This document shows positions 22,951-28,322 of a DNA stretch of 64,000 nt, piece by piece (position 1 is the stretch's first letter; each line of letters starts with the position of its first letter). The DNA comes from Glaciecola sp. HTCC2999. GTDB lineage: Bacteria > Pseudomonadota > Gammaproteobacteria > Enterobacterales > Alteromonadaceae. The stretch is from contig CATECQ010000035.1 of the NCBI GenBank assembly GCA_949498985.1, forward strand, positions 86,501 through 150,500, in the 5' to 3' direction. The notes beneath the pieces were generated by a model. That model saw only the letters and a list, made by a program, of their open reading frames with translations. It was not told where the DNA came from and did not search any database. Position numbers and translations under genes: made by a program.

Positions 22951-24306
22951 ATGAAATACCTGCCAATATTATCTGTAAGTGTGTGTGCGTTGTTATTATC
23001 GGCGTGCGTGATTGTGACGCCTGATATCACGGTGAATAAAAAAGAGGTTTTGGTAACGACCGAACGACCTAAAAATATCATTATGATTGTCGCAGACGGC
23101 ATGGGGCCTGCTTATACATCTGCATATCGATATTACGCTGATGATCCCTCTACGCCAAATCTAGATAATACCTTTTTTGATCAATGGCATATAGGTAACT
23201 CCTCTACCTATCCCGCTACCATATCTGGATTAGTGACTGATTCTGCAGCTAGTGCGACAGCTTTATCTGCAGGTGTGAAAAGTTACAATGGTGCGATTGG
23301 GCTAGATGTCAACAAACAGCCTGTCACAACGGTACTGCATCGGGCTAAATCTAAAGGGATGAAAACAGGGCTTGCGGTCACCTCGCAAATTGTCCATGCC
23401 ACGCCAGCAGCTTATGTCGCTCATAATGAAAGTCGTCGTAATTATAATGCTATCGCAGATAGTTTCTTTGATGATCGGTTAAACGGTCAATTCAAAGTGG
23501 ATGTCATGTTGGGTGGAGGAACTGATTACTTTATCCGTGAAGACCGCGATTTAACTGCAGAGTTTCGTGCTGAAGGTTATCAATATATTGATGAGTATGC
23601 TCAGCTTAAGAGCTTGGATACAAAAGGTGGCGCGTTAGGTTTATTTGCACCAACAGGTTTACCTTGGGCAGCTGATGATACTAACCCTTTGCGTTTAAAA
23701 GACATGACACAAACGGCGATACGTTTACTTGAAAATTCGCAAGGTTACTTTTTGTTATTGGAGGCCAGTCAAGTAGATTGGGCCGGTCATGGCCGTGACA
23801 TTCATTCTGCTATGGCTGAGATGCATGATTTACATGTCATGTTGGAATGGTTAGCTGAATACCAACAAGACCATCCAGATACATTAATTGTGATGACGGC
23901 AGATCATAGTACAGGTGGACTAACTTTAGGGGCGAATGGTGATTATCGTTGGGAGCCTCAAGCCTTGCATCGTATTATTCAATCAGTACCGAGTATGGTG
24001 GAGTTTATTAAAACGTCAGATTTATCCCCGCAACAACGTCTTGCGTATCTCCAATCAGCGTTACAATTTGAACTGACGGAGGAGGAAATTCAAGCGGTAT
24101 TTGCTATGGATATGAATGCAGAGAACCGTCCATTAGAAGCTGTTGTTAAAGCATTTATAGACCGAAAAACCAATACCGGCTGGACAACATGGGGGCATAC
24201 CGCTGTGGATGTGCAAGTGTTCGCTATAGGACCCGGCGCAAATCAATTCGCGGGGCACCAAGATAATACTGATATTGCTAAGTCTATTTTTAAACTGTTG
24301 GATTAA
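22951..24306 (+). CDS. Alkaline phosphatase, lipoprotein
   Basis: Lipobox LLLSAC; MIVADGMGPAYTSAYR, TDSAASATALSAGVKSYNGAIG active site, TADHSTGG. Confidence 0.92.
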   Translation: MKYLPILSVSVCALLLSACVIVTPDITVNKKEVLVTTERPKNIIMIVADGMGPAYTSAYRYYADDPSTPNLDNTFFDQWHIGNSSTYPATISGLVTDSAASATALSAGVKSYNGAIGLDVNKQPVTTVLHRAKSKGMKTGLAVTSQIVHATPAAYVAHNESRRNYNAIADSFFDDRLNGQFKVDVMLGGGTDYFIREDRDLTAEFRAEGYQYIDEYAQLKSLDTKGGALGLFAPTGLPWAADDTNPLRLKDMTQTAIRLLENSQGYFLLLEASQVDWAGHGRDIHSAMAEMHDLHVMLEWLAEYQQDHPDTLIVMTADHSTGGLTLGANGDYRWEPQALHRIIQSVPSMVEFIKTSDLSPQQRLAYLQSALQFELTEEEIQAVFAMDMNAENRPLEAVVKAFIDRKTNTGWTTWGHTAVDVQVFAIGPGANQFAGHQDNTDIAKSIFKLLD

Positions 24307-25011
24307 TTATTGATTTAAAAACGTGTCAATATCTTCACCAGTCAGTTTTTTCATGTGCATGAAGATATACATGATTGCGGTAATGAGCATAATCATACTA
24401 GGGATGACGATAACTGGGTAACTCAGTGCAGTCATTCTACCCAGTTCTTCAGTGTAGGCTGTGGTACCAGGCTCAGACACGAGAATCCACTTAGCTAATA
24501 GATAGTTTAATGCTGAAGAAAGAAAAAACGATGCAGCGACGATGTAGTTACTGATATCGATTTTCTTTTCAAACTCGGTCATTTTATTTACACGGGTCAA
24601 TGATTCGTTCAATTTAGCCCAATTAATCATCGTTTCATTGAGCACCAGTACTTTGATAAGCGGTTTTTTCATGTAACGAGTCACTAGTACGGCGACCCCG
24701 ATTAATCCTGGGATTGCCGCCTCTTTTATCGCAATATATTCAGCTGGCAGTTTTAATAAACTGATTCCTCCAGTTAATAGTACACTGACAATGCCCAATA
24801 CCGAGAAGAAATTCACTTTTCGGGTTTGGTATAATTCGTATAGGCCATAACCTAAAGGGAAGGCTAACGCGATAGCGATACTCCATAACGGGCCTAAATA
24901 TTCAGGCTTACTAGCGTAGCTCATGATCACTACAGGAATAATGATATTGAACGCTAAATTGGCTAACATATTGTCTTGTTTGGGTTTGATTGGGTCCGAA
25001 GAGTAGGACAT
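24307..25011 (-). CDS. VC0807 family integral membrane protein
   Basis: Multiple TM helices; ANLAFNIIIPVVIMSYAS...PEYLGPLWSIAIALAFPLGYGLYEL pattern. Confidence 0.7.
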   Translation of the reverse strand: MSYSSDPIKPKQDNMLANLAFNIIIPVVIMSYASKPEYLGPLWSIAIALAFPLGYGLYELYQTRKVNFFSVLGIVSVLLTGGISLLKLPAEYIAIKEAAIPGLIGVAVLVTRYMKKPLIKVLVLNETMINWAKLNESLTRVNKMTEFEKKIDISNYIVAASFFLSSALNYLLAKWILVSEPGTTAYTEELGRMTALSYPVIVIPSMIMLITAIMYIFMHMKKLTGEDIDTFLNQ

Positions 25012-25045
25012 GAATATGATTTCCTGTTGAATTATCGCGTTGAGT

Positions 25046-26215
25046 TTATTCTAAAATAATATGAGGAACAAACCGAGAGCTGTCTTGTGTTATTAAGCTG
25101 TTATCTTCACGTATTGAGATGCCTGCTGGCATATCATTGACTAACCAAGAACCTATTAAGGTATAGTGATTACCAAATTTGGGGAGCGCATGAAACTGCT
25201 GAAAAATCACTCCTTCATCGCCATATTGCCCCCCTGTTTGGGCGATAACCTCATTATTATCAATGATCATAATATTAGCGCCTTCGCGCGAAAAAATAGG
25301 CTTCTTGACCCATTTTCCGGATTTGTCGACGTGCTTTAAATCTTTGTGCAAGTAGCTTGGCAGAAGGTTCGGGTGATGAGTAAAGCGCGACCATAATAAT
25401 GGCATTAGGGCTTTATTAGACAGTACACATTTCCATAATGGCTCTACCCATTGAGTGGCAGAATAGGCTGCTATTTCACCAAACTCTTCCTTGAGCATAA
25501 ATTCCCACGGATAGAGTTTAAAAGCACTATTGATCGGCATATCGTTTAAATCAACAAAGCGATGCGTCTCGGTAATGCCAATATCGTCAATATAGATAAA
25601 GGGAGTGTCTAATCCTGCTTGTGCCGCACAGTCTTGTAAATATTGAACTGTACCTCGATCCTCATCTGAATCTTGACAACAACTAAAGTACATTTCTTTT
25701 TGCTGGTGAAGATTGGCGATATCTCGAAAACGCATAATAAGCTTTTCTTGCAGCGAATTAAATTGGTCTGCAGCTTGAGGTAATTGACCATTATCGACAC
25801 ATTGCTCTAACCATAGCCATTGCCAAAAACCCGATTCATACAAACTTGTGGGAGTGTCAGCATTATTTTCAAGTAATTTTGCGGGTCCCGTTCCGTCATA
25901 TACTAAATCTAAACGTGAATATAATGACGGTTGGCGTTGTTGCCAGGCATCACAAACAGCCTCATGAAAGGCTTGAGGAATACAAAAGTCGGTTAATAAT
26001 TGAGGAGATTGCACAACTTCGTCCACCACATGCAAACACATCTCATGCAGCTCTTGGGTCGGATCTTCAATATCACGTTCGATTTGTTCTAGCGTAAACT
26101 GATAATAGGCACTTTCATCCCAATAAGGCTCACCTTTAATCGTGTGAAAGTGAAAACCATATTCTTGGGCGAGTGATTGCCAATGCTTTCGGGGGGCAAT
26201 ATCTCGCCTTAGCAT
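25046..26215 (-). CDS. Glutathionylspermidine synthase-like ATP-grasp protein (YgiC/YjfC family)
   Basis: MLRRDIAPRKHWQSLAQEYGF, LVYDGTGPAKLLENNADTPTSLYE, KKPIFSREGANI, SRFVPHIIL motifs; no CHAP amidase domain. Confidence 0.92.
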   Translation of the reverse strand: MLRRDIAPRKHWQSLAQEYGFHFHTIKGEPYWDESAYYQFTLEQIERDIEDPTQELHEMCLHVVDEVVQSPQLLTDFCIPQAFHEAVCDAWQQRQPSLYSRLDLVYDGTGPAKLLENNADTPTSLYESGFWQWLWLEQCVDNGQLPQAADQFNSLQEKLIMRFRDIANLHQQKEMYFSCCQDSDEDRGTVQYLQDCAAQAGLDTPFIYIDDIGITETHRFVDLNDMPINSAFKLYPWEFMLKEEFGEIAAYSATQWVEPLWKCVLSNKALMPLLWSRFTHHPNLLPSYLHKDLKHVDKSGKWVKKPIFSREGANIMIIDNNEVIAQTGGQYGDEGVIFQQFHALPKFGNHYTLIGSWLVNDMPAGISIREDNSLITQDSSRFVPHIILE

Positions 26216-26218
26216 AAC

Positions 26219-26830
26219 TTATCCACCAAAACTTCTGAAACTCGAGGAGCGAGCGACACTTTTACCAAAGCCACCGCGTTTGACTGTTCGATTCACTGTC
26301 GGTTTCTTCTTAAAATCAGAAGGGTAAACTTTGGCATCGCGTCGTCCTAAATTACCAAAGTCTTTACCGCTAGCATTAAACCAACGCCCACGAAACACAG
26401 ACCGGCGTGCATAAGAGGTGAACATGGGTTGGCTGTAGTAGCGGCGTTGATTATTACCAAAACCATTCACCACTCGGCTCATCATGTAACCCGCCATGAA
26501 GGGCATAAAGAAACTACTGCTTTGGTTAGACACGTATTCACAGTTGTCTTGTCCAAACTCAAATTCACAGTCGCCTTCGCTTACAAACTTAGGACTAGTT
26601 CGTAAAGCTTCATCCTTTGCTTCTTGGTATGCGCTGGTACATTCTTGCATGTAATTCGGGTTCTCACTCGCGCATTCATCAATACTGGTATAAATCGAGG
26701 CGAGCTCAGGTTCCTCGCCACAAGCACTTAAAAACATCGCGCCAATACACACGGTAAGTGGTTTGACGGCAAACCATTTGCGCATTTGTGGTAGGGCAAT
26801 TGAAGCAGACCGTTTGAGTTGATTCATCAT
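26219..26830 (-). CDS. DUF1190 (YgiB-like) lipoprotein-like protein
   Basis: Lipobox-like MFLSAC; Cys-containing YTSIDECASENPNYMQEC...DCEFEFGQDNCE; basic Gly/Ser/Arg-rich C-terminus; 3 bp from the ATP-grasp start. Confidence 0.85.
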   Translation of the reverse strand: MMNQLKRSASIALPQMRKWFAVKPLTVCIGAMFLSACGEEPELASIYTSIDECASENPNYMQECTSAYQEAKDEALRTSPKFVSEGDCEFEFGQDNCEYVSNQSSSFFMPFMAGYMMSRVVNGFGNNQRRYYSQPMFTSYARRSVFRGRWFNASGKDFGNLGRRDAKVYPSDFKKKPTVNRTVKRGGFGKSVARSSSFRSFGG

Positions 26831-26843
26831 GAACTCCTGTGAA

Positions 26844-27260
26844 CTAATACGTCATGCAAGCAGCATTGAGCAAGCCTACTGCAATTGAGACTGCAGCAAG
26901 CATAATACCAGCGGATACTTCATTTTGTTCGATGCGTTCTGCAATTTTAGGCATAAAAGTAAAGCGTAATAACAAAAATGCTAAGCACTGAGCAACGAGT
27001 GCAACAATGGCCCAGATGATAAAATCAGTCAATGCGACTGCGTTTGCTGCGGCACCCGATAAAGCGATTGCAAAGCCGATTAACGCACCACCAAAAGCAA
27101 TGGCTGCGGCAGTAGATTGTTGCTCTTTAATCAGCATCCATTCGTCATGGGGAGTCACTTTGCTGTAGATGACTTTAAACACTAAAAGCAACAGCAATGC
27201 GACAGCAAAATATAAGACAAAGTCGCCCAGTCCGGCAATAGAGTTTAAAAATGTATCCAT
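26844..27260 (-). CDS. DUF350 (YjfL-like) membrane protein
   Basis: Hydrophobic repeat protein with TPHDEWMLIKEQQSTAAAIAFGGALIGFAIALSGA. Confidence 0.88.
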   Translation of the reverse strand: MDTFLNSIAGLGDFVLYFAVALLLLLVFKVIYSKVTPHDEWMLIKEQQSTAAAIAFGGALIGFAIALSGAAANAVALTDFIIWAIVALVAQCLAFLLLRFTFMPKIAERIEQNEVSAGIMLAAVSIAVGLLNAACMTY

Positions 27261-27272
27261 AAAAACAGTTCC

Positions 27273-28322
27273 TTATTGAAATGATAACCAGTTAAATTCA
27301 TTAATACGCCGTGCAGCTATATAAAAAATGCGATCACCTGGTTTGACGTGGGCATTAAAATCAGGATTCACATGAATATTATGATCGTCATGGTCTGTGG
27401 CAAAGCCAACAAATATGGCATTGTGGTGTTTTTTTAGTCCTAGGAATAAATGCTCTACTAGCATGGTGCTGGCATTATCAGGCACTACCACTGAGTATTG
27501 TTCTTGACCGGCATTCACACTTAATAAGTCATGATGCAGTAGGCTGGAGCCTGGATCAAATGCTGATTTCACGAGGAGTTCAACGGCAACACTAGGCGTG
27601 CACTCAACATTGGGGCAATGGTCTTTGAGTAATCCGACTAAGCTTTCATCATTAAAATACGCCACTATATGTGCTTTTGGATTACGTTTAGCACAGTATA
27701 ATGCGCAGGTCATCGTAATATCATCATCAGGATTATCAATTAAAATGGTTTTTGCTTCGCCCACATTGGCACGATTCATATCTTCGTCACGATTAAACGA
27801 ACTGACTTTTACAAATTCTATCTGACCGGGTAAGGGGTTAGTTATGTCTTTTTTAACACAGAGCATTATTTCCGCTTTGACCGTATTTTGAGCGTTTTCT
27901 TTGATTAATAGATTAAGTAGCTGCAGGGTACGTTCCCCATTCCAGCCAATAATCAAAATGTGTTGTTCATTCATGTGATTATTTAATCCTTTATTATTTT
28001 TGTGCCATTTGAAAGATATCCAAGTTGCAATTCGCCCTACAATAAGAGCAAAAATACTCAAACCCACAGGGATAATGTAAAGTGCAACGACTAATTTGCC
28101 GGCAAAAGTGCTGGGTGAAAAATCACCATATCCAACGGTTGAGCCCGTCACGATTAACCAATACACAAAGTCGACAGGATGAGTCAGAGCGGTTTCACCG
28201 GTCGCCAGTAATAGTCCCCATGATGATAATCCATATATGAATAGTAATATGACGATGGTATACCACTGGGTGTCTGAAAAGTAATGAAGCAGCTTTTTCT
28301 TAAGCTTGTGCCAAGTCAGCAT
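27273..28322 (-). CDS. Two-TM potassium channel with C-terminal RCK/TrkA-N-like domain
   Basis: Selectivity filter STVGYGDFSP; Rossmann-like region ILIIGWNGERTLQLLNLL. Confidence 0.9.
   Translation of the reverse strand: MLTWHKLKKKLLHYFSDTQWYTIVILLFIYGLSSWGLLLATGETALTHPVDFVYWLIVTGSTVGYGDFSPSTFAGKLVVALYIIPVGLSIFALIVGRIATWISFKWHKNNKGLNNHMNEQHILIIGWNGERTLQLLNLLIKENAQNTVKAEIMLCVKKDITNPLPGQIEFVKVSSFNRDEDMNRANVGEAKTILIDNPDDDITMTCALYCAKRNPKAHIVAYFNDESLVGLLKDHCPNVECTPSVAVELLVKSAFDPGSSLLHHDLLSVNAGQEQYSVVVPDNASTMLVEHLFLGLKKHHNAIFVGFATDHDDHNIHVNPDFNAHVKPGDRIFYIAARRINEFNWLSFQ

Follow-up and report, generated by a model that had tools for sequence, protein, structure and literature searches.

Introduction

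What does a stand-alone ATP-grasp ligase modify when its gene lies beside those of a small lipoprotein, a DUF350 membrane protein and a potassium channel? The question is raised by five minus-strand open reading frames (ORFs) at positions 24,307 to 28,322 of a 64,000-nucleotide stretch of Glaciecola sp. HTCC2999 (contig CATECQ010000035.1, positions 86,501 to 150,500), hereafter the window. We propose, with a rough probability of 0.58, that the product of the cluster is an envelope lipoprotein with a polyamine tip, the ligase acting on the C-terminal Gly of the DUF1190 protein. The parts of the locus on which this proposal turns, all on the minus strand, are as follows.

26219-26830, minus: DUF1190 lipoprotein (YgiB/YjfM family), proposed ligase substrate (PF06693, E 5e-47)
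26720-26722, minus: lipobox Cys37 of the DUF1190 protein (LSAC; column conserved in at least 90% of 44 sequences)
26264-26278, minus: RGGFG motif, DUF1190 residues 185-189, near the C-terminus (conserved columns; motif counts)
26222-26230, minus: Phe-Gly-Gly C-terminus, DUF1190 residues 201-203, proposed spermidine ligation site (GG end in 76 of 97 partners)
25046-26215, minus: putative stand-alone ATP-grasp peptide-spermidine ligase, YgiC/YjfC family (PF03738, E 6e-154; PDB 7uk8, E 5e-151)
25862-25915, minus: ligase R101/D103/E116/N118, equivalent to GspSA R316, D318, E330 and N332 (alignment to E. coli Gss)

In the proposed mechanism, the DUF1190 protein (...RSFGG) would have its C-terminal carboxylate activated by the ligase as an acyl phosphate, and one of the amino groups of spermidine or norspermidine would then be joined to it. 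Glutathionylspermidine synthetase (Gss) carries out the same chemistry on glutathione, at the carboxylate of its Gly. Recognition would rest on the RGGFG motif, and the disordered Ser/Gly/Arg tail would act as a flexible arm. The modified lipoprotein would be exported and anchored, and its polycationic tip would work in the envelope alongside DUF350, and also alongside the RCK channel and a PspA-like protein in loci that have them. Gene order, family membership, catalytic residues, the terminal residues in both operon types and the mutual exclusion of these types are seen directly in the sequences; from these we infer that the tail serves as the substrate in the cell, that it is modified before export and that the product has an envelope role.

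The ligase and its putative polyamine

The closest solved structures to the window ligase are those of E. coli YgiC and YjfC (PDB 7uk6-7uka), and the RefSeq product name of both proteins is peptide-spermidine ligase. Pederick 2023 (doi 10.1021/acs.biochem.2c00592), cited in PMC12568646, reportedly found this activity in both. An earlier reading of the window from its letters alone (the sequence-only reading) had found no settled biochemical function for the family, a view that is now out of date; it had pointed to the related E. coli genes YgiB/YgiC and YjfL/YjfM/YjfC, and the ligase is nearest to YgiC and YjfC. Like them, the window ligase is a full-length homologue with the same catalytic residues and a DUF1190 gene directly upstream. 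Unlike theirs, its operon has a K+ channel and a VC0807 gene and lacks YjfI/J/K.

The 389-residue ligase covers positions 1-371 of the 371-position GSP_synth profile (PF03738). The CHAP amidase half of Gss is absent, and the score against the bifunctional-Gss profile NF007801 was far below cut-off. In an alignment with E. coli Gss, which has the same ATP-grasp fold, R316, D318, E330, N332 and E391 correspond to R101, D103, E116, N118 and E185 of the window ligase, and K498, K533, R538, Q568 and R598 to K268, K305, R310, Q339 and R369. The window residues other than E185 are taken as catalytic and Mg/ATP residues, after their equivalents in Gss. Mutation of such residues would have spoken against the sequence-only reading; since all are retained, the window ligase looks active, and ligation of spermidine to a peptide is predicted. 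Apart from the missing amidase half, the enzyme differs from Gss at S335, S337 and E392, which are T, T and D. The equivalents of R101/D103/E116/N118 were retained in 98-100 of 100 short ligases.

The gene nspC was found in 10 of 10 Glaciecola genomes, so the genus should be able to make spermidine or norspermidine. A search of these 10 genomes for spermidine synthase gave three weak matches, none of them convincing and none in the window's own genome. The amine used by the ligase could thus be spermidine or norspermidine, obtained by the carboxy-route or by import.

The C-terminal Gly of ligase partners

The comparison covered about 150 relatives in total, including the sister operon described below. 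In the ligase set there were 97 lipoproteins or small membrane proteins encoded next to a ligase. E. coli YgiB ends in SRSMGG, E. coli YjfM in GHWGG and the window protein in FRSFGG. A terminal Gly was found in 77 of the 97 partners, and 76 ended in GG. When the last 25 residues were shuffled in 2000 rounds, GG ends averaged 6.5 and never exceeded 16, and only 4 of 646 background ORFs had such an end. No ligase partner ended in Lys, compared with 53 of the 646 background ORFs. The motif [RK][GSY]G[FYW] near the C-terminus was present in 83 of 97 partners but in 3 of 646 background ORFs.

The tail was found even where the rest of the protein was different. Six small partners with no Pfam match, to DUF1190 or otherwise, still have GGF or GGW tails, and partners of this kind retain an N-terminal membrane or lipoprotein segment. 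The part of the partner that stays with the ligase is its tail and not its body.

Within the DUF1190 family (alignment of 44 sequences), the window protein has the lipobox LSAC; C53 and C64 are invariant, and C37, C88 and C97 nearly so. Among the RGGFG columns, G187 is invariant and R185, F188 and G189 are nearly invariant. The predicted structure has a core with a predicted local distance difference test score (pLDDT) of about 90, which falls below 50 over residues 189-203, the last 15. The C-terminal tail is therefore predicted to be disordered.

The ligase might instead make a free peptide-polyamine conjugate from a tripeptide-like precursor. The DUF1190 lipoprotein would then bind or sense this molecule, and the tail would be a docking or structural element. 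Gss, the closest characterised cousin, acts on free glutathione; equivalents of its R316, E391, R538 and R598 are retained in the window ligase, and the lipoprotein is predicted to lie outside the cytoplasm. We nevertheless regard a free product as unlikely, as it explains neither why the tail outlives the protein body nor why the final residue should be Gly beside a ligase but Lys beside the aminopropyltransferase of the sister operon. The sequence-only reading had offered both a small peptide or polyamine and the DUF1190 partner as targets. The second option is the one we keep, with the DUF1190 tail as the likely target.

Several points weigh against ligation to the tail. The chief problem is topology. 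A lipobox and four more conserved cysteines make a periplasmic location probable for the mature DUF1190 protein. Since the ligase depends on ATP in the cytoplasm, modification would have to come before export. Twenty of the 97 partners do not end in Gly (Ser 16, Thr 2, Glu 2). The partners without DUF1190 similarity, as well as those in the remote transferase clusters below, were chosen by eye among neighbouring ORFs. The sequences are related, so the terminal-residue counts are not independent events. Pederick 2023 may also report a different peptide preference. When ligases with Gly-ending and non-Gly-ending partners were compared column by column, the only differences were ones that could follow ancestry.

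A sister operon with an aminopropyltransferase

Ravi 2024 (PMC11237479) described PspA-linked gene groups. The third contains the ligase, K+ channel, DUF350, DUF1190, DUF2491 and a CesT/Tir-PspA dyad. The second contains a spermidine-synthase-like protein fused to seven transmembrane segments (7TM), DUF350, a lipoprotein and DUF4178, and for its enzyme the paper mentions only "aminopropylation of other substrates", citing Li 2019. The order in group 2 is 7TM-aminopropyltransferase - DUF350 - lipoprotein - YjfI - PspA-like - DUF4178. It has DUF350, YjfI, the PspA-like protein and a Ser/Arg-rich lipoprotein in common with ligase operons, whereas the aminopropyltransferase takes the place of the ligase, the lipoprotein ends in Lys rather than Gly, and the two enzymes exclude each other in the sampled genomes.

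The first four group-2 operons were taken as a control in which no conserved end was expected. In all four, the lipoprotein ended in RGK. A terminal Lys was then found at 53 of 53 readable loci (RGK 50, GGK 2, RSK 1; shuffled mean 5.1). Remote transferase clusters gave the same result: a small membrane or Ser/Gly-rich partner ended in Lys in 7 of 7. These lie on plasmids of Alteromonas, Novosphingobium (two), Ensifer, Tritonibacter, Burkholderia and Gemmatirosa, and so cover alpha-, beta- and gammaproteobacteria and Gemmatimonadota. A second Burkholderia record agrees; a Rhodovulum record (L186), with only a partial transferase gene, was excluded.

The transferase retains GGGDG, DxPDP and other spermidine-synthase residues, and would extend the side chain of the C-terminal Lys with aminopropyl groups. 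Since amide ligation requires a carboxylate and aminopropyl transfer requires an amine, the last residue fits the enzyme in each operon. This suggests that two unrelated enzymes alternate in one PspA/DUF350 scaffold, both putting polyamine on the extreme C-terminus of a lipoprotein: the ligase would amidate Gly with spermidine, the transferase would build on the Lys side chain, and the encoded last residue would reveal the chemistry. We put this paired reading at about even odds.

Among 61 genomes, 29 had the canonical ligase, 17 the transferase and none both (Fisher p 1.2e-6). The exclusion was also seen with one genome per genus (p 3.5e-5) and within the window's family (p 2.5e-4); these tests ignore ancestry, yet both operon types are interspersed among the genera of one family.

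The RGGFG...GG and ...RGK ends could also be recognised by other machinery, as signals for sorting or quality control in the envelope, with an indirect link to the enzyme. The proteins are lipoproteins, and conserved C-terminal ends serve as sorting signals elsewhere. We consider this very unlikely, because operons that have DUF350, YjfI and the PspA-like protein in common differ in this end according to which enzyme they encode.

Some individual loci deserve mention. Only one genome (G029; L046, 5587-7556) has both a transferase and a ligase; this ligase is divergent, with 445 residues, and the lipoprotein upstream of it ends in SSYSSGS. At L159:2304-3302, a transferase-type lipoprotein ends in FRSGGFGGK, like a ligase-type GGFGG tail plus Lys, and is possibly an intermediate between the two operon types. 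The Alteromonas mediterranea megaplasmid cluster (L178:2826-10584) encodes a cytosine methyltransferase, an aminopropyltransferase, speD, a toxic anion resistance protein, DUF4178, a 510-residue protein with a Lys end and DUF350. Tiny Lys-ending membrane peptides of 48 and up to 97 residues (L179:4027-4173, L183:3263-3556) lie directly upstream of a 69-residue half-length DUF350 and the transferase.

The remaining genes and the neighbourhood

The other three genes of the locus, together with the selectivity filter of the channel, are listed here.

27273-28322, minus: two-transmembrane K+ channel with RCK-type cytoplasmic domain, MthK-like (Ion_trans_2 E 4e-11; MthK 3rbz E 1e-18)
28122-28139, minus: TVGYGD selectivity filter, channel residues 62-67 (direct sequence reading)
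26844-27260, minus: DUF350 (YjfL family), four transmembrane helices (PF03994 E 3e-38; AlphaFold2)
24307-25011, minus: VC0807-family membrane protein, looser cluster member (NF041646 E 6e-54)

From channel to VC0807, the five ORFs have 349, 138, 203, 389 and 234 residues and are separated by 12, 13, 3 and 34 base pairs, exactly as the sequence-only reading had given them. Its five family assignments, including the missing amidase half, were borne out by Pfam and NCBIfam profiles. The channel matches Ion_trans_2 plus a TrkA_N-like region and aligns with MthK over residues 20-330 (pore and RCK); by its TVGYGD filter and RCK region it is an MthK-type channel, with putative ligand gating.

DUF350 is the most regular membrane partner across loci. 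Its AlphaFold2 model (pLDDT 93) has four long helices. The model consists of two similar halves, each a transmembrane pair plus a short helix, and matches the half-length DUF350 of the remote clusters. Neither DUF350 nor DUF1190 matched any PDB fold at E <= 0.001, and a DUF350 search of plasmids gave no matches.

In Glaciecola the order is channel - DUF350 - DUF1190 - ligase - VC0807, flanked by queA and a convergent alkaline phosphatase gene. The alkaline phosphatase and VC0807 genes meet at window position 24306/24307 with 0 bases between their stop codons. Promoter-like sites at the locus number 15, near the chance value of 12.7 in shuffled sequence, and predicted terminators fall within genes.

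Other genera of the window's family and many gammaproteobacteria have the arrangement YjfI - YjfJ - channel - YjfK - DUF350 - DUF1190 - ligase. E. coli has two sets, ygiB-ygiC and yjfI-J-K-L-M-C. The window locus, with DUF350 - DUF1190 - ligase on one strand in that order, has the core of E. coli yjfIJKLMC and of group 3 of Ravi 2024, and the K+ channel also occurs in group 3. Unlike these operons, it lacks YjfI, YjfJ (PspA-like) and YjfK, which are absent at the locus in Glaciecola. DUF2170 (YjfI) was found in 0 of 10 Glaciecola genomes, for which reason we regard the locus as a reduced form; PspA-family genes of unassigned type are present elsewhere in these genomes. The window locus is thus a reduced, marine form of an operon type already described (E. 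coli yjfLMC/ygiBC; Ravi 2024 group 3).

The five-gene module seen by the sequence-only reading is confirmed, and its interpretation held in part. The neighbourhood is kept within the genus and, with additional genes, far outside it. VC0807, however, is a looser member: it was found close to the ligase in the window's family (its own genus and other genera) and in no other. The steadiest part is the DUF1190-ligase pair, which in ygiBC and several relatives occurs without the rest of the cluster.

The sequence-only reading had also supposed that the neighbouring K+ channel is gated, either by what the ligase makes or by the DUF1190 protein once modified. The channel adjoins here and in many relatives, it has an RCK-type ligand-sensing region, and some K+ channels are blocked by polyamines. 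The channel is missing, however, from ygiBC, from E. coli yjfIJKLMC and, among alpha- and betaproteobacteria, from many loci in which ligase, partner and DUF350 are all retained. As the channel is optional, gating is a minority possibility with little probability, and this part of the sequence-only reading was not sustained.

Discussion

In the literature consulted, neither the paired end-residue rule nor our reading of the substrate has been described before, although Pederick 2023 may already cover some of the ligase side. For YgiC/YjfC-type ligases and membrane-fused spermidine-synthase-like proteins alike, the terminal-residue rule names a concrete candidate for the natural substrate. It also predicts exact mass shifts, which makes the substrate question simple to test. 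If true, polyamine ligation to these tails would represent a class of protein modification, the C-terminal polyamination of envelope lipoproteins, in widespread operons linked to membrane stress.

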